The notes under the pieces were generated by a model that was given only the letters and a program-made list of their open reading frames with translations, made no database searches and had not been told where the DNA came from. From positions 1 through 40,400 of the forward strand of contig JACUUH010000018.1 in assembly GCA_014859375.1 (NCBI GenBank): 40,400 bases of DNA, in the 5' to 3' direction. A program made the translations under genes and the position numbers. The stretch is from Gammaproteobacteria bacterium. GTDB lineage: Bacteria > Pseudomonadota > Gammaproteobacteria > Nitrosococcales > Methylophagaceae. Of this stretch, positions 1,437 through 40,186 are shown in pieces (the first letter of the stretch is position 1; every line of letters starts with the position of its first letter).

Positions 1437-1531
1437 GATTTATTCTCTCTTTAAAATATGAATAATCTAAGGTTAATTAAGCCCAACGAAGGAGAAAAAA
1501 CGCTGTCATTCAAGTCGTCTTGAAAAACATC

Positions 1532-1629
1532 GTCATTGCGACCACTAGGCAAAGCCGTGGTGGTAAGGTAATCCAGTCCCAAAACCTGATTCAGCACCAG
1601 ATTGCCGCGGTCTACGACCTCGCAATGAC
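1532..1629. repeat. REP-like palindromic intergenic repeat
   Basis: A 98-bp unit starts with GTCATTGCGA and ends with the exact reverse complement TCGCAATGAC. This is the GTCATTGCGAG-type intergenic palindrome widespread in proteobacteria. Inner portions (GGTAATCCAG and AGATTGCCGCGG) are also characteristic of this repeat type. Confidence 0.65.
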
Positions 1630-1689
1630 AACTTTTTAAAACTCTTTACATCAAACACGGTTCAGTTCAGTAATCTTTTGACGGAAATC

Positions 1690-1900
1690 TATACCCAATC
1701 AACTTGAAGATGCTTACTACTTTTACCGTTCGTGGTCGACTGCATGGATGCAGGAGGTAGAGCAACGCAGGAGCAGTTGCCGAGAGCTTATCGAACCATG
1801 AACCTAAGTAAGCTAGCCCTTCGACTCCTCGACGAGCTCAGAGCTCAGGGTGAACGGAAATTTTTTAGCCATATCTGCATCTTCAATGATTACGGGTATA
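1690..1900. mobile_element. MITE-like element with imperfect 24-bp terminal inverted repeats
   Basis: The left arm (1690-1713, starting TATACCC and ending TTGAAGATGC) is matched by the inverted right arm (1877-1900, starting GCATCTTCAA and ending GGGTATA). The 211-bp interior contains GGATGCAGGAGGTAGAGC, a sequence I associate with intergenic repeats in marine gammaproteobacteria. It also holds a CTTCGACTCC...CAGGGTGAACGG segment resembling another REP class. No transposase is encoded, so this is a non-autonomous element or a nested repeat. Confidence 0.55.
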
Positions 1901-2066
1901 TACCCAAAATGCGAGTTGCTTATACTCTCGCACGGCTTCCGGCTAAAAAGCCGATATTTTTTAACCGAAATGAACGTTATTTTCTGCGTTTTTACTCTTT
2001 GCTCCTTAACACTAATCAACATGCTTAGAGTGTGTTTATGCACTTGAGTTCACTGGGTTTTGTTAA

Positions 2067-8988: not shown

Positions 8989-9420
8989 ATGGATCCATTA
9001 CTAAATTTCAAGCCCAAGCTTTATTATCTTGCTGTTATTTACAGTCTTCTGTTCACCTTATTGGGTTTTTCATACAATGTGTGGCGTATGGAAATATCGG
9101 AACAAAATGACACCATACGCACAGCCTCGTTTGAAATGTTGGTTGAATTATCGTCATTAGAACAACTTATTTACATAGCCCATTACGATGGTGATTTGGA
9201 TGAAGGTAGTCCACGAAAGGGCTGGGTTAAAGTTGGACTGATTGCTGATCTCAGTGTTTTAACGGATCCAAGCGTCGAATTAACCGCTGGTGACTTGAGG
9301 AAAATCTGGGCACAAAATTGGGATAAAGTTGCTTACGATAACGATTCAGTCACAGATATTGTTAAAGCGATTGATAATGTCAGATCAGAAATTAAGCGTG
9401 TATTGAAATCACTCGAATAA
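8989..9420 (+). CDS. Hypothetical single-pass membrane protein
   Basis: A 143-residue protein of no family I recognise. One hydrophobic segment (about residues 10-30, YYLAVIYSLLFTLLGFSYNVW) is followed by a charged, mostly helical soluble part with many acidic residues. It is probably an N-terminally anchored inner-membrane protein. A GGGAAT sequence precedes the ATG. It lies about 100 bases upstream of the Fae homologue on the same strand, but whether they are cotranscribed cannot be judged. Confidence 0.6.
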   Translation: MDPLLNFKPKLYYLAVIYSLLFTLLGFSYNVWRMEISEQNDTIRTASFEMLVELSSLEQLIYIAHYDGDLDEGSPRKGWVKVGLIADLSVLTDPSVELTAGDLRKIWAQNWDKVAYDNDSVTDIVKAIDNVRSEIKRVLKSLE

Positions 9421-9486: not shown

Positions 9487-9521
9487 GATGTGTTTTTTTA
9501 CTATTTAGTTGGAGTTAATTT

Positions 9522-10073
9522 ATGTCAGAACCAGTATGGTTTAGAACCGCAGAAGCCACCGTCTTTGCCAGTGATGATCAAGGCACTGATGCAATGCCTG
9601 AAATCTTGATTGGTAGCACCAAAGGTCCAGCTGGTCATGCCTTTGCTAACTTGATGGGGCAAACAGAAGGGCATACACGCATGTTTGCCATTAGGGCGAC
9701 GAATCAACAAGTTAAACCTGCAACGATGATCGTTCCTAAAGTCACAATCAAATCAAGTGCATACGTTGAATTGTTCGGCGGCCCAGTGCAATCAGCCATT
9801 GCTGATGCTGTTTTAGATAGTGTGATTGAAGGTGTTATCCCGAAAGAGCATGCTGATGATCTATGTATTGTTGCGATGATTTGGATCTCTCCTGACGCCG
9901 CATCAAACCCAGATGTTGATCGTAAAGATTTGTATCGTACTAACTATGAAGCAATGAAATTAGCTATTTCACGTGCAATGACTGGTTCTCCAAGCATTGA
10001 TCAACTGATTGAAAATCGTAACAAGATTCATCATGAAATGTATAACCCAGAAACAGGTGAATCCCTCTGGTAA
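9522..10073 (+). CDS. Formaldehyde-activating enzyme (Fae) homologue with altered active site
   Basis: Fae catalyses condensation of formaldehyde with tetrahydromethanopterin in methylotrophs. The 183-residue product clearly belongs to this family: KPATMIVPKVTIKSSAYVELFGG, AVLDSVIEGVIPKEHADDL and NYEAMKLAISRAMTGSP align with Fae without large gaps. The conserved histidine of the family (His17 of the Methylorubrum enzyme, in an AHIDLIIG-like segment) is replaced here by Met25 in AMPEILIGS. It also has a longer N-terminus and C-terminus. It is therefore more likely a Fae2/Fae3-type paralogue than the main enzyme. A GGAG ribosome site precedes the ATG and a hairpin follows the gene. No other H4MPT-pathway gene is in the window. 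Confidence 0.82.
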   Translation: MSEPVWFRTAEATVFASDDQGTDAMPEILIGSTKGPAGHAFANLMGQTEGHTRMFAIRATNQQVKPATMIVPKVTIKSSAYVELFGGPVQSAIADAVLDSVIEGVIPKEHADDLCIVAMIWISPDAASNPDVDRKDLYRTNYEAMKLAISRAMTGSPSIDQLIENRNKIHHEMYNPETGESLW

Positions 10074-10091
10074 ACACTGCCTATACGATGT

Positions 10092-10134
10092 AAAGCCTCA
10101 TCTTTAATTGAGTACAATAAAAGATGGGGCTTAT
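10092..10134 (+). terminator. Terminator-like hairpin after the Fae homologue
   Basis: AAGCCTCATCTTT and AAAGATGGGGCTT form a 13-bp stem (with a G-U pair) around an AT-rich loop, starting about 19 bases after the stop codon. The downstream T run is weak. Confidence 0.5.
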
Positions 10135-13860: not shown

Positions 13861-13956
13861 ATGACATTCAACGTTGCGCATATCGTTTTCATCGGTCACT
13901 TTAGTGTTTTTTTCTTATTTTTAGTTTTCTCAGGTTTTACCTTATTCAATGGCTAA
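13861..13956 (+). CDS. Possible 31-residue hydrophobic membrane peptide
   Basis: An ATG at 13861, preceded by TTTGGAGA at about 12-16 bases, opens a 31-codon frame rich in Phe, Leu and Val. It is predicted to be a single membrane segment (FSVFFLFLVFSGFTLF). It ends about 80 bases before the start of the PAS/GGDEF/EAL protein and has no recognised relatives. Either a genuine small membrane protein or chance; the ribosome site and extreme hydrophobicity favour the first. Confidence 0.4.
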   Translation: MTFNVAHIVFIGHFSVFFLFLVFSGFTLFNG

Positions 13957-14035
13957 CGTATCAATACTGTTACGCAGTCCTTGGCTGAAGATAAACTTTC
14001 GGGGCTTGTTGTTGTTGCTAACCTTTAGGGCCATT

Positions 14036-16276
14036 ATGAATATTATTAATAATGAAAATAGAGTGATGTATCGTTTGATTGCGGCATTTATCCTGGTTCT
14101 GTGTGGTGCTGTTTGGATCATAACGTCGCTAGCTGATGTAAGTCATAAAGTTGAACGTAATATGTCGATGTTAGTTCAAGATCATCTGCCAGAACTTGAC
14201 AGTATTTATACACTCCAATCCCATATCAAATCACTTGGCCTAATTTTATATAATTATTATGAAACGACAGATTCTTCTGACTATGCAACGAAATGGCAAC
14301 GTAATCAGCAAAACACCCATCAATTATTAGCTAATTTGGATCACGATTTTGCCCGTGATGTAAATGACTATCTGGATAATTTAAATACTATTGCAGATGA
14401 TTTTGATACGGAAATGCAGCATCCTCAGACGGATTGGGATGTACTTAGGAATTACTTGGCGGTTTACAGTCAAATCAGTGATGAGTTTGATGTGATGTTG
14501 AATATCCATATTCAATCCTTACAAGATAGCTTTAAGTATTACAGTGACAACACTGAATCATTGATAGCAAAAATGGTTATTTCACAAATGGTCTTTAGTG
14601 GTTTTGTGATTGTGTTTTTGCTCGTTTTTGCATTTGTATTAAAGCGAATGTTACAACAACATCGAATTAATCGTGAATTAGCACTTTATCCTGAGCGTAA
14701 CCCCAATCCTATTCTTAGACTAAACGCTACAGGCCAAGTGGTTTATCTCAATCCATCGGCAGTCGCACTGGCACAATCGTTGAATTGTGCTGAATTTCCA
14801 GAAAAACTACTTCCCGACACTGATAGTCAGTCGCCAGATAAGCTACAAGGTCGGCCGATAAATTATCAGTCGCTCAATTATCCTCTTGGCAATAAGTTAT
14901 TTTCGGCTATTTTCAACCATACTGATCAAGATGATTCGGTATATGCCTATTTATTAGATGTAACGGATCGTGTTAAGGCAGAAAATGAACTGCTTCACCG
15001 CTCCAATCATGACTTGTTGACCGGTTTACCAAACCGCAGAAAACTCGAAGAAACCTTAACATCGAAAACACAGGCATCACTTAATCCATTTAGTCTATTG
15101 TTCATCAAGGTCAGTCGTTTAGATTTGATCAATGCATCATTAGGCCATGAAATCAGTGATAAAGTGTTGCAAGCAATGTCACATCGTTTAGCACTGTTTG
15201 TTGATAAGCAATCAGAGCACGATTTAAATCTATATTCATTTGAATCAACAAGTTGGGTGATTATTTATAACAATACTGCCACACCGGCTGATGCTAAGGC
15301 GCTTGGCGATGATGTCGTTGGTTTATTTTTATCACCATTAACAATAGGTGATGGTGAGTTGAGCATGCAATGCATGGTTGGGATCACAACTTATCCGCAA
15401 GATGGTTGTTATTCTGATGAATTATTGCGTAATGCCGATGCCGCATTAAGGCAGGGTAACAAGGAAGCTTTAGCTGTTCGTTTATATAGCGAGGATTTAA
15501 CCGAACAAGCAACACGTTCATTGTACTTGGAGCAAGGACTAAAGCAAGCACTGAAAAAAGGTGAATTTAGCCTAAATATACAACCTAAAGTCGATGCACA
15601 TAGTCAGCACATTATTGGCGGGGAAGTCTTAATTCGTTGGTGTTATAACGATGTCTTTATTTCACCTGCGGAGTTTATACCGATAGCAGAGGAAAGCGAT
15701 TTAATTATTGCTATAGGGGAGTGGGTATTATTAACATCATGTAAACAGTGGGTTACATGGCATGATGAGGGGCTTGATCCGAAAAAGATAGCGGTTAATA
15801 TTTCAGCGCAGCATTTCATTCAGGCTGAGTTTGTCGATTATGTACATCACGTACTAACACTCAGCACAATACCTCCGGCAGCATTAGAGTTGGAAATTAC
15901 TGAAGAGGTCGCTTCGGTTAACCCGGAAAAATTAATCAAAACGATGATGGAGTTGAAACAACTTGGGGTCAGTTTAGCTATTGATGATTTTGGTACGGGT
16001 TATTCAAGTCTCAGCTATTTAATGCAGTTTCCGTTAGATACCTTAAAAATTGATAAATCATTTGTAACGAAAATGACAAACAGTGAGAATGATGCAGCGC
16101 TTGTCAGAATGATTATGTCGCTTGCCAAAGAATTAAAATTAGCGGTTGTTGCAGAAGGGGTAGAAACCGAACAGCAACATAAAGCTTTAGCCGATCTTGG
16201 CTGTGAATATATACAAGGTTATCATTTTTATCGGCCAATGCCGCTTGATGACTATCGCACATTGTTATTAAAGTGA
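14036..16276 (+). CDS. Membrane sensor protein with PAS-like, degenerate GGDEF and EAL domains
   Basis: Predicted cyclic-di-GMP signalling protein. Order in the 746-residue form: membrane segment (12-33), extracytoplasmic helical sensor (about 35-178), second membrane segment (180-202), PAS-like domain (216-310), GGDEF-fold domain (321-486) and EAL domain (493-746). The GGDEF site reads SFEST (401-405), so cyclase activity is improbable. The EAL domain keeps the catalytic pattern: EVLIR (Glu530), VNISAQHF, ELEITEE, DDFGTGYSS, LKIDKSF and AEGVETE. It is therefore likely a c-di-GMP phosphodiesterase. The start at ATG 14036 has AGGG five bases upstream. An in-frame ATG at 13949 would overlap the small hydrophobic ORF. 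Confidence 0.85.
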   Translation: MNIINNENRVMYRLIAAFILVLCGAVWIITSLADVSHKVERNMSMLVQDHLPELDSIYTLQSHIKSLGLILYNYYETTDSSDYATKWQRNQQNTHQLLANLDHDFARDVNDYLDNLNTIADDFDTEMQHPQTDWDVLRNYLAVYSQISDEFDVMLNIHIQSLQDSFKYYSDNTESLIAKMVISQMVFSGFVIVFLLVFAFVLKRMLQQHRINRELALYPERNPNPILRLNATGQVVYLNPSAVALAQSLNCAEFPEKLLPDTDSQSPDKLQGRPINYQSLNYPLGNKLFSAIFNHTDQDDSVYAYLLDVTDRVKAENELLHRSNHDLLTGLPNRRKLEETLTSKTQASLNPFSLLFIKVSRLDLINASLGHEISDKVLQAMSHRLALFVDKQSEHDLNLYSFESTSWVIIYNNTATPADAKALGDDVVGLFLSPLTIGDGELSMQCMVGITTYPQDGCYSDELLRNADAALRQGNKEALAVRLYSEDLTEQATRSLYLEQGLKQALKKGEFSLNIQPKVDAHSQHIIGGEVLIRWCYNDVFISPAEFIPIAEESDLIIAIGEWVLLTSCKQWVTWHDEGLDPKKIAVNISAQHFIQAEFVDYVHHVLTLSTIPPAALELEITEEVASVNPEKLIKTMMELKQLGVSLAIDDFGTGYSSLSYLMQFPLDTLKIDKSFVTKMTNSENDAALVRMIMSLAKELKLAVVAEGVETEQQHKALADLGCEYIQGYHFYRPMPLDDYRTLLLK

Positions 16277-31256: not shown

Positions 31257-33701
31257 TTATAACTTTACTCGTCGCAGTCTCAAGGCATTTGCAATGACCG
31301 ACACTGAACTCAGACTCATTGCAGCCGCAGCAAGCATCGGTGATAGCAATAAACCAAATACCGGATATAAAATTCCCGCAGCTATGGGTACGCCAAGTGA
31401 GTTGTAGATAAAGGCAAAAAACAGATTTTGGCGAATATTGCTCATGGTACTACGGCTTAAACGAATGGCTTTGACGATGCCACGCAAGTCACCCTTGACT
31501 AAGGTTACACCGGCACTTTCCATGGCAACATCAGTACCTGTTCCCATTGCAATACCAACATCGGCTTGAGCTAATGCCGGGGCATCATTTATGCCATCAC
31601 CAGCCATCGCAACAACTTTACCTTGTGCTTGTAACTGTTTGACAATAATAGCTTTATGTTCTGGTAATACTTCTGCTTGAACACTGTCAATACCAAGTTT
31701 GCCTGCCACTGCCATGGCTGTGGCATGGCTATCACCCGTTAGCATTACAACGCTGATACCTTCAGCATGTAAGGCTTTAATAGCTTCAGGCGTCGATTGT
31801 TTTACTGGATCTGCAACACCAATAAGTCCTGCTGCTTTGCCATCAATACTGACCAGCATCACAGTTTGGCCTTGTGCACGTAATGTATTTGTTTGATCTA
31901 CTAAATCATTGGCTTCAACGCCAATTTCTTGCAAGAGTTTACTATTACCCAACGCCACAGCATGATTATCAACCGTGCCGGTTACACCTTTGCCGGTGAT
32001 TGAGGCAAAGTCAGTGGTTGGCGATAGGGTGATATGACGATCTAATGCACCGGTGACAATGGCTTCAGCCAAGGGATGTTCGCTGGCACGCTCTAAACTG
32101 GCAGCAAGCTGTAATAAGTTTGTTTCAGAAAATGGCTGTTGCGCAATAACACTGACAAGTTTGGGTTTTCCTTCGGTTAATGTGCCTGTTTTATCAATTA
32201 CAATGGTGTCGACTTTTTCTAATACTTCCAAGGCTTCGGCATTTTTAATTAATACACCATTTAATGCACCACGACCGGTACCAACCATAATAGACATTGG
32301 TGTTGCTAAGCCTAAGGCACATGGGCAGGCAATAATCAAAACCGCAACAGCATTGATAATTGCATGAGCCATTTTGGGGTCAGGCCCAACACTATTCCAC
32401 ACAATAAACGTAACAATGGCGGCAACAACAACGGTTGGCACAAAATAACTGGCAACGGTATCGACCAGTTTTTGAATCGGGGCGCGTGAACGTTGTGCAT
32501 CGGCAACCATTTGCACAATTTGGGCTAATAAGGTTTCACTACCCACTTTTTGTGCTTGCATGATTAAGCTGCCAGTACCATTAACGGTTGCACCGATTAA
32601 TCTGTCATTAACGGCTTTTGCAACGGGAAGTGATTCACCTGTGACCATTGACTCATCGACGCTACTGTGACCCTCAAGGATGATGCCGTCAACGGGTACT
32701 TTATCACCGGGCCGTACCCTCAGTTTGTCGCCGACGTGAACCTTGTCAAGAGCAATATCCTGTTCATCTCCGTTATCTCGCACAATTCGAGCGGTATTGG
32801 GTGCTAATCCGAGTAGTAATTTGATAGCAGCATTGGTTTGGCTACGAGCGCGAAGCTCTAATACCTGGCCCAATAACACCAGTACGGTAATTACCGCCGC
32901 AGCTTCAAAATACACTGGGACTGTACCATCAGCATGTCTCATCAATGGCGGAAAAAGGGTTGGAAATAATAGAGCGACGACACTGTATGACCACGCCACT
33001 GATACACCTAAACCAATCAGGGTGAACATATTAAGATTGCGACTCGTCAATGACTGCACTGCACGTACATAAAATGGCCAGCCAGCCCAAACAACAACCG
33101 GTGTTGCCAAAATGCATTCAATCCATTGTATTTGGGACATGGTGACATCTGTTGGTAACCATTGTGGCGCCATATCAGCCAGCATCGCTACTATAAACAC
33201 CGGTAAGGCAAACACACTACCAATATAAAAACGACGTGACATATCATCTAGTTCGCTGGTGTCTTGTTTTGCTTCAACCGTCATTGCTTCTAATGCCATG
33301 CCGCATTTAGGGCAGGTTCCAGGATGATCTTGTATCACTTCGGGATGCATGGGGCAGGTATATTGAGTTGTGCTGGAAATAGGTGAGCTGGGTTCTAATG
33401 CCATACCACATTTAGGACAGTTTCCTGGCTCGTGTTGCGCTACATCAGGACACATCGGGCAAATATAAGCATTCGCTTTTTTGTTGGCTGGTGCGCTTTG
33501 TACAACAGGATCAGCCTGATTTGCATGACCACCACAGCAACTTTTGATTGTGTGTTTATCAGCACCATATTGCTCGGGTGATGCTTCAAATTTAGTTAAA
33601 CAGTTGGCACAACAAAAATAATAGCTCACATTATTATATGTAGTCTGATGTTTGGCGGTGTCAGTATCGACACTCATGCCGCAAACAGGATCAATTGCCA
33701 T
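31257..33701 (-). CDS. copA: Copper/silver-type P1B ATPase with YHS and heavy-metal-binding domains
   Basis: Metal-exporting P-type ATPase of 814 residues. N-terminal order: YHS domain (1-47, DPVCGM and FCCANC), Cys/His-rich link (CCGGH, 55-59), and two heavy-metal-binding zinc-ribbon-like modules ([20 protein letters not shown], 81-100; CPMHPEV...CPKCGM, 116-135). No classical GMxCxxC HMA domain is present. The ATPase core has TGES (354-357), the ion-binding CPC (459-461), phosphorylated Asp503 in [13 protein letters not shown] and GDGINDAP. The CPC and domain set suit monovalent Cu/Ag export. The start is ATG 33701 because it opens the YHS domain. Last gene of the cus operon, 11 bases after cusA. 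Confidence 0.9.
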
Positions 33702-33712
33702 GATTCTTATTC

Positions 33713-36700
33713 CTATAGAGTTGGTGTACGTTGTTTGTGTTGTAATACAAACCCATAGATAACAGGCAGTACCAATAAGTTCAATAAGGTCGCTGTTATC
33801 ATACCACCGACCATTGGCGCAGCTATACGTTGCATGATTTCTGATCCGGTACCACTTCCCCACATGATCGGTAACAGACCTACAATGATTGCTGTTGCAG
33901 TCATTATAATAGGGCGAACCCGTTCAGAAGTACCACTATAAACCGCTGCCATAATGTCGTGATGACTTAAGATTGTGGCTTGTTGATCATGCATTTTCTC
34001 ACGCCTATACTGAGCTACCTTTTGATCAATAAAGGTTAATACCAGCACACCCAATTCAGCGGTAACACCAGCCAAGGCAATAAAACCAACAGCAACAGCG
34101 ACCGAAAGATTAAACCCTAATAAATAGACTAGCCACACACCGCCTGCCAGAGCAAACGGAATGGTTAACATAATCAGCAAGGGTTCGCTGATATTACGAA
34201 AGTTGAGATAAAGTAGTAAAAAAATCAATAACAAGGTTATGGGAACAACGATTTGTAAGCGTTGTGCGGCGCGTTCCATATATTCAAACTGCCCTGACCA
34301 TGACAGCGTATAGCCAGCGGGAACACTGAGTTGTTGATCAATAATAGCTTTGGCTTTGTCAACATAACCACCAATATCATCGGTTTTAATATCAATATAA
34401 ACCCAGGCATTAGGACGAGCATCTTCACTCTTAATCACGGGTGCACCACGCCGTAATTGCATGGTAGCAACCTGAGCAAGTGGAATTTGTGCACCGGTCG
34501 GTGTTGCAATAAGAATACGTTTTAATTGATCAATATTGTCACGTAACTCACGTGGATAACGTAGATTGACCGGATAACGCTCCAAGCCTTCTACCGTTTC
34601 AGTGACATTAACCCCACCGATGGCGGTTTGAATGACATCTTGCACATCGGACACATGTAAGCCATAACGACCTAGTTGATCACGGTTGATATCAAAATCA
34701 ATGTAATAACCACCAGCGGCTTTATCACCAAATGCTGACAGGGTATCAGGCATGGTTTTAATAATCTGTTCAATATCCGATGCAATCTTCTCCAAAACAT
34801 GCAAATTAGGCCCACTTACCTTAATGCCAATCGGTGTTTTAATCCCGGTCGATAGCATATCGATTCGTGTTTTAATCGGCATGGTCCAGGCATTCGCTAA
34901 CCCCGGAAATTGAATAGCTTTATCCATTTCAGCCATTAATTGTTTGGTGGTTTTAGTGGGATCTGGCCACAGGTTTTTATCTTTAAGGGTAATTGTTGTT
35001 TCGAACATGGCGAGCGGGGCGGGATCAGTTGCTGTATCAGCTCGACCAGCCTTACCAAAAACATGGCTGACTTCAGGAAAGGTCATTATTATTTTATCGG
35101 TTTGTTGCAATAATTCACGCGCCTTGCTGATTGAGATACCTGGGTAGGTGGTTGGCATATACAAAATATCGCCTTCATCCAATGGTGGCATAAATTCACT
35201 GCCTAATTTTGATATCGGAATGATGGTGACAACCAGTATTGCAAGTGCAAGTATTAAGGTGATCCAACGCCAGCGCATAGCAAGCCGTAAACTGGGAGCA
35301 TGGATAAAATGCAGTAAGCGATTAAGTGGATTTTTAGCCTCGGGCATGATCTTGCCTCGGACGAAATAACCCGTTAATACCGGCACTAAGGTGATCGCTA
35401 AAATTGCTGCCGCAGCCATCGAATAGGTTTTAGTAAAGGCTAATGGTGCAAATAAACGGCCTTCTTGAGCTTCTAAGGTAAACACTGGCAAGAATGAAAT
35501 GGTAATAATCATTAAGGAAAAGAATAATGCTGGGCCAACTTCTTTAGTTGCATTAGCAACAGTTTGCCAACGCTCTGATGATGTTAGCTGTTGACCTTTT
35601 AGTTTGACAGCCTGTTCCAGATGTTTATGGGTGTTTTCGATCATGACAATGGCACCATCAACCATCGCACCAATGGCAATCGCAATACCACCTAACGACA
35701 TGATATTGGCATTAATACCTTGCCAATACATCACGATAAAAGCCATTAAAATTCCAATCGGCAACGAAATGATTGCAACCATAGCCGAGCGAACATGAAA
35801 TAAAAATAACATACAAATCAAAGCGACAACGATCGATTCTTCAATCAACTTTTCAGTCAAATTATCAACAGCACGATTGATTAATTTACTGCGGTCATAA
35901 ACGGGCACAATTGATACGCCAGCAGGCAAGCCTTTTTCCAATTCAGCTAATTTATTTTTAACATTTTCAATGGTTTTTAATGCATTTTCGCCATAGCGCA
36001 TGATAACAATGCCGCCAGCGACTTCACCTTCGCCATTAAAATCAGCAAGACCGCGTCGTAATTCCGGACCAAAGTGGACATTTGCCACGTCTTGCAGTCG
36101 AATAGGAATGCCATTATCACTAACACTGATTGCGATTGATTTTAAGTCATCTAATGATTGAATATAACCAAGACCGCGAACCATATATTCAGTTTCAGCC
36201 ATTTCAATCAGCTTACCGCCGACATCACGATTAGATCGTTGGATCGCTGTTTTGACCTTGGATAATGGAATGTTGTAATTGAGCAGGGCATTAGGATCAA
36301 CTTCCACTTGGTATTGTTTGACAAAACCACCAATAGAGGCAACTTCAGCCACACCATCAACGGTTTGTAGCGGATAACGTAAATACCAATCTTGAATTGT
36401 GCGAAGTTGAGCCAGATCATGACGACCACTGTTATCAACCAAAGCATATTCGTAGATCCAACCGACCCCCGTGGCATCTGGTCCAAGATTGGGCCTGACT
36501 TCTTTGGGTAATCGTGCGCTAACATAATTCAGGTATTCCAACACCCGTGATCGCGCCCAGTACATATCGGTATTGTCTTCAAAAATAATGTAAACAAATG
36601 ACAAACCAAAGAATGAATAACCGCGTACTGTTTTTGCCTTGGGCACAGCTAACATCGCTGTAGTCAGTGGATACGTCACTTGATCTTCGACCACTTGCGG

Positions 36701-36871
36701 CGTTTGTCCAGGATATTCTGTTAGCACAATCACTTGAACATCCGATAAATCAGGAATGGCGTCTAGCGGGGTATGTTTTAAGGCCCAGACACCAGCAACC
36801 ACTATCAACAGTGTTGCTAATAGTATTTGAAATTTTTCACGTAACGAGGTGGTGATAATCCAATTAATCAT
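33713..36871 (-). CDS. cusA: Heavy-metal efflux RND pump CusA
   Basis: Inner-membrane proton-driven pump of the HME-RND family, 1052 residues, the usual CusA length (1047). It has the opening [36 protein letters not shown], 12 membrane spans in two halves, two large periplasmic loops, and the intramembrane motif [26 protein letters not shown]. The second half contains [21 protein letters not shown]. Together with cusB and cusC it would form a channel across the envelope. Cu(I)/Ag(I) is favoured over Zn/Co/Cd because of the associated Cu-type ATPase and the HMBD-bearing CusB, but this is inference. It overlaps the end of cusB by eight bases. Confidence 0.93.
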
Positions 36872-38300
36872 GCTGATGCCCCCCAGCGACGCTATCTGAT
36901 TGCATCGGTAGAGTATGAGAACTCATATCCATTTGTTGTGGATCGTGCCTATTTTGTTCAGTCATTTCTGGCGGCTGCCTATCCGACTCAGACTGGTTGT
37001 TATCAGTGTTGCTATTGATAGATTCGGCTGAGATTGCTTCGAGCATTTTAGCTGTTGATTCACGTAATTTAGACTCAGAATCAATCAAGAATTGGCTGGA
37101 TGTCACAACCTCTTCACCAGCAGAAACGCCCTTAACTATCTGTGTTAAACCATTGGAAGATAAACCTATTTCGACTTCTCTTGGTTCAAACTTGCCTTGT
37201 TCACGTACCACAAATACTTGATTACGCTCACCAGATCGAATGACGGCTTCAGAAGGTACGGTAATGGCGTCACGTTGTTGTTGGGTGTGAATAATAACAT
37301 TGGCAAACATATCGGGTTTAAGTAACAAATCGCTATTATCAAAAACCAGTCTGACCTTGATGGTACGGGTTTTAGCTTCAGCATAGGGGTAGATATAAGA
37401 TAGTGAGCCTGTAAAGGTTTTGCCAGGAATACCAGTCAAGGTCATTTCCACTGAATCACCGACCTTGACCCATGGTAATTCCGATTCATAGACATCAGCA
37501 TAAACCCAAACTGTAGACAGATCAGCCAACATATACAGCTCGGTTTGAGGGCTAACATATTGACCTTCACGGGCACCGATATTGATCACAACACCATTAA
37601 ATGGCGAGTGGATATGAATGTTCTTTTTAATTTCGCCAGTTTGTTCCATATCCTTAATTTGGTGTTCAGGCACATCAAGAAACGCCAAGCGTTCACGCGC
37701 AGATTTGACCATTTGCCTAGCACCAAAACTAATATCCTCGAACGGACTTTTTTCTAATGTTTCAGCACTTTTAAGTGCCAGTAAATACTCTTGTGAGCTG
37801 GTCACTAACTTTGGTGAATAAATACTTAATAGCATCGTGTTGTTTTCAACGGTAGTACCGGTTTTGTCGATAAATAGTGTATCTATCCAACCTTCAGTTT
37901 TGGGATGAAGGCGGGTAATGTGTTCCTCGTCATAAGCGACACGACCAGCAGTTGAAATATCATGAGATAGCGGCATAACTGTTGCGGTAGCGGTTCTTAC
38001 CCCCATATTTTGAACAGTAACAGGATCGATTTCGACTGTGCCTGTCGGTTGATCGCTATTTGATTTTTTGCCATCGGCATAGACAGGAATGTAATCCATA
38101 CCCATATAATCCTTGGCGGGTGTGGGTGAGGTAATATCTGGATTCATCGGATTACGGTAAAACAAGGGCTTGGCCTCAGTCTTAACCATGTCTTGAGAAG
38201 AGGGTGATACATCGTGTTGTTTTACAAACCAATAAGCAGATAATGCGCCTAATGCAATGCCGGTAATTAATGTCAACGTAAACAAAGCAGGTTTATTCAT
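36864..38300 (-). CDS. cusB: Membrane fusion protein CusB with HMBD and His/Met-rich tail
   Basis: Periplasmic adaptor of the CusCBA pump, 478 residues. It has an N-terminal anchor (about 4-24), a heavy-metal-binding module (LFYRNPMNPDITSPTPAKDYMGMDYIPVY, about 46-74), then lipoyl/hairpin, beta-barrel and proximal domains (HSPFNGVVINIGAREGQYV around residue 210). The C-terminus is an unusual low-complexity tail rich in Gln, Met, His and Asp (MDMSSHTLPMQ...GGHQHD), a probable extra metal site. The start at ATG 38300 has GGAGAC upstream. The start lies within the end of cusC, giving translational coupling. Confidence 0.92.
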   Translation of the reverse strand: MNKPALFTLTLITGIALGALSAYWFVKQHDVSPSSQDMVKTEAKPLFYRNPMNPDITSPTPAKDYMGMDYIPVYADGKKSNSDQPTGTVEIDPVTVQNMGVRTATATVMPLSHDISTAGRVAYDEEHITRLHPKTEGWIDTLFIDKTGTTVENNTMLLSIYSPKLVTSSQEYLLALKSAETLEKSPFEDISFGARQMVKSARERLAFLDVPEHQIKDMEQTGEIKKNIHIHSPFNGVVINIGAREGQYVSPQTELYMLADLSTVWVYADVYESELPWVKVGDSVEMTLTGIPGKTFTGSLSYIYPYAEAKTRTIKVRLVFDNSDLLLKPDMFANVIIHTQQQRDAITVPSEAVIRSGERNQVFVVREQGKFEPREVEIGLSSNGLTQIVKGVSAGEEVVTSSQFLIDSESKLRESTAKMLEAISAESINSNTDNNQSESDRQPPEMTEQNRHDPQQMDMSSHTLPMQSDSVAGGHQHD

Positions 38301-39648
38301 AAATTGTCTCCTCACCAACAGTGGCGACTAATTTAGCTAAGGCTGATTGACCTTCACTAATAGTTTGCCATAGGCGGGTTTCGTAGTTGTATTGTGTGAT
38401 CTGGGCGCGGATCAGGTTGAGAAAATCGACTTTATTGACTTGATAACCTGCCAGCATTGAGGCCACTGTTTGCCGAGCCTGGGGGATCACGCCCGTTCTA
38501 AATAATAAAACCTGTTGTTGGGTGCGGTTATATTCTGCCAATGTTGCCGTTATATCGGCTTGTATTGCTAACCAACGATCGTGCAAAGCATAGTGCTGTT
38601 GTTTGACTTCGATACTACGTTGTGAAATGGCCATTTTTTGTTTGCTGTCAGCAAATATGGGCACATTGATACCAATACGTAGCGATAGCAGATCAGACCG
38701 ATTATCACCATTGGGATTGTTACCTTGTCGAAAACCATAAGTAGCACCAACACTAAAATCAGGCAATAAATCACGTTGTGCCAGTTCACGACGTGCTGTC
38801 GCGGCTTCGATCAATAAGCGTTGTTGCGCCAGTTCAGGTCGATTTGCCTGTGCCAGTTGCATAATGGCTGATGCAGATTTTAAGCTAGGTAGGTCTGTAT
38901 CAATATCCGTTAATGTGGGCAACTGGATCCTGCTATCAGTTGCCCGATTAAGCAAGGCATTGAGACGCGCTGCCTCTTGTTTTCGTTTACTATCCAGTTC
39001 GATGTTTTGATCGATCAGCTTTGATAGTTCCAGCTGTGCCAATAACACATCCTGCTGTAAACCCTGACCTACTTTATATTTGGTTTGAGCTATCTCAACA
39101 AACTGCTTTAACAGTGTTTTATTGATTTCGATAACCTCAAGCGATCGATCAAGGAAAAATAGCCGCCACCACAGCGTTTTAACATCACGATTGAGTTGAA
39201 GCCTGATTTCATCGACCTGACTGGTGGCAGCATTTGCCATATAACGTGCGATAGTTTCTTTTAATGCCAGCTTGCCGGGATAAGGGATTTGTTGGCTAAT
39301 ACCCAACTGCATTTGAGTCATGGGATCTTGTTCGAGATTAAAGGTGTCAGTCGGTAGATTGGCAGGGCTAAAACTAAGCATTGGATCAGGTAAACTGCCA
39401 ACTTGTGACGGTATCGTCGCCATTGCTTCAGCCCGAGCTGACATCTCGGCTAAACCTGGATTTTCCAGCTCAACATAGGCTAAAGCAGCCTCTAAGGTTA
39501 AGGATTGAGTATCAACAGTAACTAAATCAGCATTGTATTTTGCTATGGTCAAATCAAGATCATTAGCCTGCGCTAACGAAAAAATAGCTAAGCCAAAAGC
39601 CAGTAATAAAAATTTTCTAGTGATAGAAAAGGGTATATTCCACATCAT
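38293..39648 (-). CDS. cusC: Outer-membrane channel protein of the TolC/CusC family
   Basis: Outer-membrane efflux protein of 451 residues. It has a signal peptide (about 1-30, LLLAFGLAIFSLAQA) and two OEP repeats, each made of long helices: the first around GISQQIPYPGKLALKE, the second around LAQRDLLPDFSVGATYGFRQG. The opening ALAYVELENPGLAEMSARAEA is typical of CzcC/CusC-like proteins. The start is ATG 39648 with AAGGTG six bases upstream; a longer frame to 39717 lacks a ribosome site and spoils the signal peptide. No lipoprotein cysteine is seen at the cleavage site. Confidence 0.88.
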   Translation of the reverse strand: MMWNIPFSITRKFLLLAFGLAIFSLAQANDLDLTIAKYNADLVTVDTQSLTLEAALAYVELENPGLAEMSARAEAMATIPSQVGSLPDPMLSFSPANLPTDTFNLEQDPMTQMQLGISQQIPYPGKLALKETIARYMANAATSQVDEIRLQLNRDVKTLWWRLFFLDRSLEVIEINKTLLKQFVEIAQTKYKVGQGLQQDVLLAQLELSKLIDQNIELDSKRKQEAARLNALLNRATDSRIQLPTLTDIDTDLPSLKSASAIMQLAQANRPELAQQRLLIEAATARRELAQRDLLPDFSVGATYGFRQGNNPNGDNRSDLLSLRIGINVPIFADSKQKMAISQRSIEVKQQHYALHDRWLAIQADITATLAEYNRTQQQVLLFRTGVIPQARQTVASMLAGYQVNKVDFLNLIRAQITQYNYETRLWQTISEGQSALAKLVATVGEETIYE

Positions 39649-39774
39649 TTTGAACACCTTGATGGTGGTATCAATAACATCATCAATAACGGATGACACA
39701 CTACAGCTAACATTCAATTTAACTAAAATCGCGTATTGAAAAGCGATACTAAATTAAAAGCGCGACTTGATAAA

Positions 39775-40131
39775 TCAGAGTGAAATGGGGGGGCGTAATA
39801 GCGGGAAAGACTGTTGAGCCAGCGTAGCGACATCTAGCATCGCGTACTGAGCTTGAGCATAGTGACTAATGTTTAAATTAAAATTCTGGGCAGGAATGCC
39901 TAAGCTGGTAGAACAGCTACCATGAGTGTTTTTACAATTATGCTGATCTGAACAATGACCACATTTATTGTGCATAGTCTGGTGATCGTGATGGGTGTCC
40001 ATGGTCATAGTTGACATCGTTTGTGTTGTGCCAGACAGATTAATATCAGGCGCAACAGCAACTACCGTCATCGGTAAATACATCATGATAGTAATCAAAA
40101 CCAACAACAATCGCTTAGTCATACTAGTCAT
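39775..40131 (-). CDS. Small exported His/Met/Cys-rich protein heading the cus operon
   Basis: A 118-residue protein with a signal peptide (about 4-27). A short potential metal-ligand region (about 40-75) contains MTMDTHHDHQTMHNKCGHC, then SDQHNC and SCST; histidine, methionine and cysteine are concentrated here. The C-terminal third is ordinary. I do not recognise the family, although DUF2946-like proteins beside metal-efflux genes are similar in size and style. A periplasmic metal-binding or sensing role is inferred from residues and context. The start is uncertain: ATG 40131 or ATG 40122; no clear ribosome site exists for either. Confidence 0.7.
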   Translation of the reverse strand: MTSMTKRLLLVLITIMMYLPMTVVAVAPDINLSGTTQTMSTMTMDTHHDHQTMHNKCGHCSDQHNCKNTHGSCSTSLGIPAQNFNLNISHYAQAQYAMLDVATLAQQSFPLLRPPISL

Positions 40132-40156
40132 AGTAGCGTTTTGGACAAGACTATTC

Positions 40157-40186
40157 AATATATGGATGGTTGATGTATAGTCACAA
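40157..40186 (-). promoter_or_regulatory. Possible promoter of the cus operon
   Basis: Read on the minus strand, TTGTGA (40181-40186) and TATATT (40157-40162) are 18 bases apart and lie about 26-50 bases upstream of the first cus gene. A spacing longer than 17 is usual at promoters activated by MerR-type metal regulators, but I see no clear dyad of that class. Confidence 0.3.

Follow-up and report, generated by a model that had tools for sequence, protein, structure and literature searches.

The window, i.e. the whole stretch of 40400 nucleotides analysed here (C62:1-40400 of a 2.35-Mb assembly), encodes a protein of the formaldehyde-activating enzyme (Fae) family in which methionine occupies the column of the active-site histidine, and this replacement marks an old class of paralogues, probably what part of the literature calls Fae2, and is no novelty of the window gene. 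We propose that the protein is a Fae2-type paralogue from a His-less clade, made up of a Met class and a Glu class, that would have lost the histidine long ago, and that it would act in the tetrahydromethanopterin (H4MPT)-linked formaldehyde branch, as gene content across genomes suggests. H4MPT would still be bound and its condensation with formaldehyde sped up or channelled by another acid, for which Glu27 would be the obvious candidate. Its usual role would be that of a helper beside Fae1, with some lineages of one family showing only His-less Fae homologues. We put this reading forward tentatively: a Met-class Fae2-type protein that binds H4MPT, condenses it with formaldehyde via another acid and helps Fae1 has, in our judgement, slightly less than an even chance of being correct, and in its methanol-eating host this sister protein of Fae probably still does a useful job.

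The active-site column and the His-less classes

The ORF (Table 1), whose translation contains TDAMPEILIGSTKGP, matched the Pfam Fae profile (PF08714) with 198 bits against a cut-off of 27, residues 11-173 of the protein lying on positions 3-158 of the 159 in the profile, which bears out the nearly full-length Fae homology claimed in the original prediction. It also matched NCBIfam TIGR03126 (149 bits, cut-off 118). An AlphaFold model, for which 22 Met-class members served as input, had a pLDDT of 72 and a pTM of 0.73 with a poor stretch at residues 46-67, and in a structure search with this model all five matches at E <= 0.001 were chains of 1y60 and 1y5y, both of them Fae. The window protein is a member of the Fae family by profile and has the Fae fold by predicted structure. 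Its reading frame is intact, and the named records nearest to it, with 90-93% protein identity, are those of several other Methylophaga; one record equally close comes from an unclassified gammaproteobacterium.

Table 1 Features of the window gene and of the second His-less Fae homologue in the host genome
Feature	Position	Strand	Remark
His-less Fae paralogue (Met class, Fae2-type)	9522..10073	+	183 amino acids plus stop; ATG start
GGAG, likely ribosome-binding site	9511..9514	+	7 nt upstream of the ATG; read directly
Codons A24-M25-P26-E27	9591..9602	+	M25 (9594-9596) aligned with the canonical His, E27 with the canonical Asp
His51	9672..9674	+	Shared by all Met- and Glu-class rows; 57% of canonical rows have Phe
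K73-V74-T75	9738..9746	+	Column comparison of canonical, Met and Glu classes
Q90	9789..9791	+	Gln in 98% of the canonical, 100% of the Met and 100% of the Glu class
Glu-class AEPE paralogue, L002 (C25)	1471-2019	-	Second His-less Fae homologue of the host genome

The replacement itself was confirmed column by column, both by a phmmer search against solved structures, which paired A24-M25 with A20-H21 of the Methylobacterium extorquens Fae chain (PDB 1y5y) free of gaps, and by a MAFFT alignment of 232 sequences, in which the histidine of the host's canonical Fae, Met25 of the window protein and the glutamate of its sister copy all fall in one column. The canonical His-Ile-Asp thus reads Met-Pro-Glu in the window protein. 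Methionine is unable to serve as an acid or a base. The family histidine is presumably the one labelled His17; our literature search, with most subscription journals outside its scope, found no paper pairing 'formaldehyde-activating enzyme' with 'His17' and, among the papers and passages covered, no statement on a missing histidine in Fae paralogues. It had been left to be seen whether the same genome has a canonical fae, and it does: the host carries three Fae homologues, namely a canonical copy reading AHIDLIMG (L001), a second reading AEPEVIIG (L002) and the window copy reading AMPEILIG. Judged by its sequence, the AEPE protein could use the glutamate in its His column as an acid.

We collected 253 homologous ORFs from genome searches, genome contigs and plasmids, 232 of them unique, and in these the active-site column holds histidine (85), methionine (107) or glutamate (40) and no other residue. 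The sets were defined by this residue and then placed on a midpoint-rooted tree, where each of the two His-less sets forms a pure clade (support 0.65 for Met and 0.99 for Glu), as does their union (0.97, 147 sequences); the window protein, which has the AMPE motif, lies inside the Met clade. Although 77 of the 107 Met rows came from a contig search whose pattern contains AMPE, the 30 retrieved otherwise group in that clade too. The residue signature tracked the clades without exception across the 232 sequences. Since methionine is shared across a whole clade, it is a class property and not a matter of chance, and since the Met and Glu sets are pure clades within a joint one, the change at the histidine is old. 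Most simply, the histidine would have been lost once, long ago, in the ancestor of the Met plus Glu clade, a direction of change that we infer. The Met class is present in several proteobacterial groups, and its conservation comes close to that of Fae1: across 15 genomes (105 pairs) the median identity was 65% within the Met class as against 75% within canonical Fae, and in 21 of the pairs the Met class was the more alike of the two. A paralogue with an altered active site, as originally predicted, therefore stands as a description of the class; as a special feature of the window gene it does not.

Other columns were compared after four His-type rows reading AHIN or SHIN had been set aside, which left 81 canonical rows. 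The Asp column two places after the histidine holds glutamate in 100% of the Met and Glu classes, and the residue between the methionine and this glutamate is proline in 99% of the Met class (leucine in L166). Lysine is found in 100% of rows in all three classes (K73 in the window protein) and threonine in 98% of the canonical, 100% of the Met and 85% of the Glu class (T75); these two columns and that of Q90 are ones we take to be pterin-pocket positions of Fae, so that the window protein retains the Lys, Thr and Gln of the putative pocket. His51 as a stand-in acid is speculative. Archaeal Fae presumably has a histidine at this position alongside the catalytic one, and this joint occurrence makes the meaning of His51 ambiguous. 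A further Fae-like group (L080, L081, L083 and L084; match at about 1501-1941), to which the AHIN/SHIN motif belongs, keeps the histidine and has asparagine in the Asp column; in four genomes (G526, G545, G699 and G701) nothing but such a protein matched the window protein at E <= 0.001.

Co-occurrence with canonical Fae and H4MPT genes

Two orders were searched with the window protein, using genomes at least 95% complete, and a Met-class match was in every case accompanied by one in the canonical range (40/40 genomes in one order and 20/20 in the other), the latter being present only as two fragments in G1366. The histidine was read in all 20 of the canonical-range copies sampled, which came from 20 of those 60 genomes. 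Judged by gene content, the Met class in these two orders is accessory to canonical Fae. The rule that canonical Fae always accompanies the Met class, which had held in 60/60 genomes, was broken by a fuller search of one family of the second order, that of G737, which from its presence pattern and PMC4109929 is probably Methylophilaceae. This pattern has been seen once before, as the available part of PMC4109929 describes one Methylophilaceae ecotype that lacks true Fae and has Fae2 together with the remaining pathway.

In the G737 family a Fae match was found in 98 of 121 genomes, with a Met-class row in 96 among the matches listed. The absence of canonical Fae was deduced genome by genome as the match count minus the listed Met and Glu rows, and by this count 22 genomes had no match left over; a profile search of the same 22 found no full canonical Fae copy. 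One of them (G1464) was rejected as a canonical-Fae-less case and dropped on account of a 40-position Fae piece, 77% identical to a His-type copy, that lies next to the end of its locus and hence probably of the contig. Of the 21 genomes that remained, with no His-type Fae detected, 15 hold only the Met class, five hold Met plus Glu and one (G1493) holds only Glu, so that the Met class is present in 20 of them. All 21, and G1464 as well, carry mch, fhcD and mtdB (PF09176 domain), with fhcD incomplete in G1468. In contrast, none of these genes was found in the four Fae-less relatives examined from a total of 23, and all five canonical Fae holders examined had all three; across these 31 genomes a Fae homologue and the H4MPT genes thus occur together in 27/27 with Fae versus 0/4 without. 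Most of the 21 genomes are draft assemblies and three are single contigs, two of which have the Met class only (G1458 and G1504) and one Met plus Glu (G1422).

We also built a tree of the window protein and 42 Met-class copies, 21 from genomes counted as lacking canonical Fae (G1464 included) and 21 from genomes with it, canonical Fae in most of the latter being deduced from match counts. By branching alone, copies from the canonical-Fae-less genomes are scattered in several places among the others. MPE is present in 42/42 copies, and a search of these for residue changes tied to the loss of canonical Fae found only positions 16 and 44 to lean differently.

That 21 genomes keep the H4MPT genes without a detected canonical Fae argues for a role like that of Fae in the H4MPT branch, and it weakens the 'binding-only' and 'regulatory' roles that had been suggested for the window protein. 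Condensation of H4MPT with formaldehyde also proceeds uncatalysed, and a pathway kept without Fae1 is therefore no proof of catalysis. A stronger version of the proposal, in which the protein would be a true H4MPT-dependent condensing enzyme working via Glu27 or His51 and the sole feeder of the H4MPT pathway in several lineages of one methylotroph family that would have lost canonical Fae, is one that we regard with some doubt. The 21 genomes, with H4MPT genes and only His-less Fae detected, offer, together with the residue signature, a clean test case for the need of the histidine.

Mutants, gene neighbourhood and alternative roles

The published mutants, as described in the available portions of the papers cited, bear on these roles. 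In Methylobacterium aquaticum 22A a fae2 mutant was slower on methanol and gave a lower yield on methanol plus succinate, fae2 deletion in an mxaF-deleted background left growth like that of the parent, and a fae1 mutant did not grow on methanol with its paralogues intact (PMC7356819). In Methyloversatilis universalis FAM5, fae1 was likewise required on methanol despite intact paralogues, fae2, fae3 and double deletions had no growth defect, and fae3 was induced about tenfold on methylamine; for the fae1 fae2 double mutant the text and strain table of the paper disagree (PMC5023235). An AM1 fae mutant was not complemented by the fae3 of M. alcaliphilum, which probably belongs to a His-less class, and deleting this fae3 was reported, with data not shown, to cause no growth defect (PMC11748545); in the related M. 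buryatense two copies lie in the canonical range, besides one of the Met and one of the Glu class. The failure of fae1 mutants on methanol argues that the paralogues cannot replace Fae1 where both exist. Co-occurrence and mutants taken together are compatible with an enzyme that is slow or conditional and uses another acid, or with a pterin-bound helper.

The failure of resident paralogues to rescue fae1 mutants (PMC5023235 and PMC7356819) would also suit a binding-only relative that holds H4MPT, methylene-H4MPT or formaldehyde as a buffer, carrier or sensor tuning the C1 branch, as would a class-wide residue in the His column that cannot donate protons, and a role in sensing or signalling had already been put forward in the parts available of PMC3728764 and PMC4109929. 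In Azospirillum oryzae the Met-class gene follows a chemoreceptor gene. However, a chemoreceptor motif occurs in the fetched stretch of just 5/80 and 1/27 Met-class loci, raw counts that carry no background rate and are underestimates, as the pattern missed the Azospirillum case, and we rejected a chemotaxis link of the class as weak. Moreover, a fae1 fae2 hgd mutant retains taxis to methanol and formaldehyde in the account available from PMC10613068, and the H4MPT genes are kept in the 21 genomes described above. The Met-class gene lies directly 3' of fhcBADC, by annotation, in Azoarcus sp. KH32C and Aquabacterium olei, and this, with the slow fae2 mutant (PMC7356819, as available), weakens the original suggestion of a binding-only or regulatory protein further; we consider such a role possible but rather questionable.

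Neighbourhood was compared over two sets of Met-class loci. No neighbour was common to most of the 80 loci of the first set, which had flanks of up to 7 kb, and the neighbourhood of the window gene was not conserved. The commonest non-Fae neighbour cluster, present at 25/80 loci, is absent from the window, and a cluster found at 17 of the same 80 includes the window ORF at 13949-16276, which by eye encodes a common type of GGDEF/EAL signalling protein. In the second set, 27 further loci from 20 genomes and seven hand-picked plasmid matches, all outside the relatives of the window, fhc gene clusters share the stretch with the Met-class gene at four, two of which are the Azoarcus and Aquabacterium loci named above, and the Glu-class locus L237 likewise carries fhc clusters. 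Directly upstream of the window gene (8989-9420, + strand) lies an ORF for a 143-amino-acid protein whose N-terminal stretch is hydrophobic and which matched nothing in Pfam or NCBIfam at E <= 0.001. On the 3' side an imperfect inverted repeat, AAGCCTCATCTTT / AAAGATGGGGCTT at 10093-10132, was seen by eye with no T run; it is a possible terminator that is absent from the terminator scan output, and a promoter and terminator scan gave nothing above chance. Further away we noted by eye a metal-efflux cluster (31257-39717, - strand) comprising a P-type ATPase, an RND pump, an adaptor and an outer-membrane protein, beside which lies a small Cys/His-rich ORF (39775-40158).

Use of another pterin or of the reverse direction, i.e. 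C1 transfer between tetrahydrofolate and H4MPT or release of formaldehyde from methylene-H4F, has been proposed for Fae homologues in the parts available of PMC5023235, PMC6277846 and PMC11748545, and on one Methylobacterium plasmid the Glu-class gene adjoins genes resembling those of the N-methylglutamate pathway. Fae homologues nevertheless travel with the H4MPT genes (27/27 versus 0/4 of the 31 genomes), and we regard this role as unlikely. A decaying duplicate or sequence error without function, suggested by the missing histidine alone, is highly improbable given the intact frame, the 90-93% identity in several Methylophaga, the clade-wide methionine and the conservation across proteobacterial groups, and conservation of the class rules out a one-off mutation or pseudogene.

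Comparison with known systems

Our preferred reading, a Fae2-type helper in the H4MPT branch, can be set against the systems closest to it. Canonical Fae (Group 1; M. extorquens Fae1, 1y5y/1y60) shares with the window protein the family profile, the fold and the Lys, Thr and Gln columns, but is mostly 35-40% identical to it and lies outside the His-less clade. 'fae' as an annotation or methylotrophy marker gene mixes proteins with different active sites. The Glu class (AEPE), which may be what some authors call the methylamine-linked Fae3, is the sister of the Met class and likewise lacks the histidine and has glutamate for the aspartate, but it carries glutamate, not methionine, in the His column and is 41-48% identical to the window protein. 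The Fae2 of M. aquaticum 22A is probably of the same Met class: in our search the plasmid with '1p' tags had Fae in one place only, a Met-class copy with the AMPE motif and 58.5% identity. We infer its link to tag 1p31155, as the plasmid record shows no annotation there; Fae2 names are used inconsistently across papers. Some of groups 2-4 of Fae-like proteins, whose function is still called unknown in the part available of PMC11748545, are probably the counterparts of the His-less classes.
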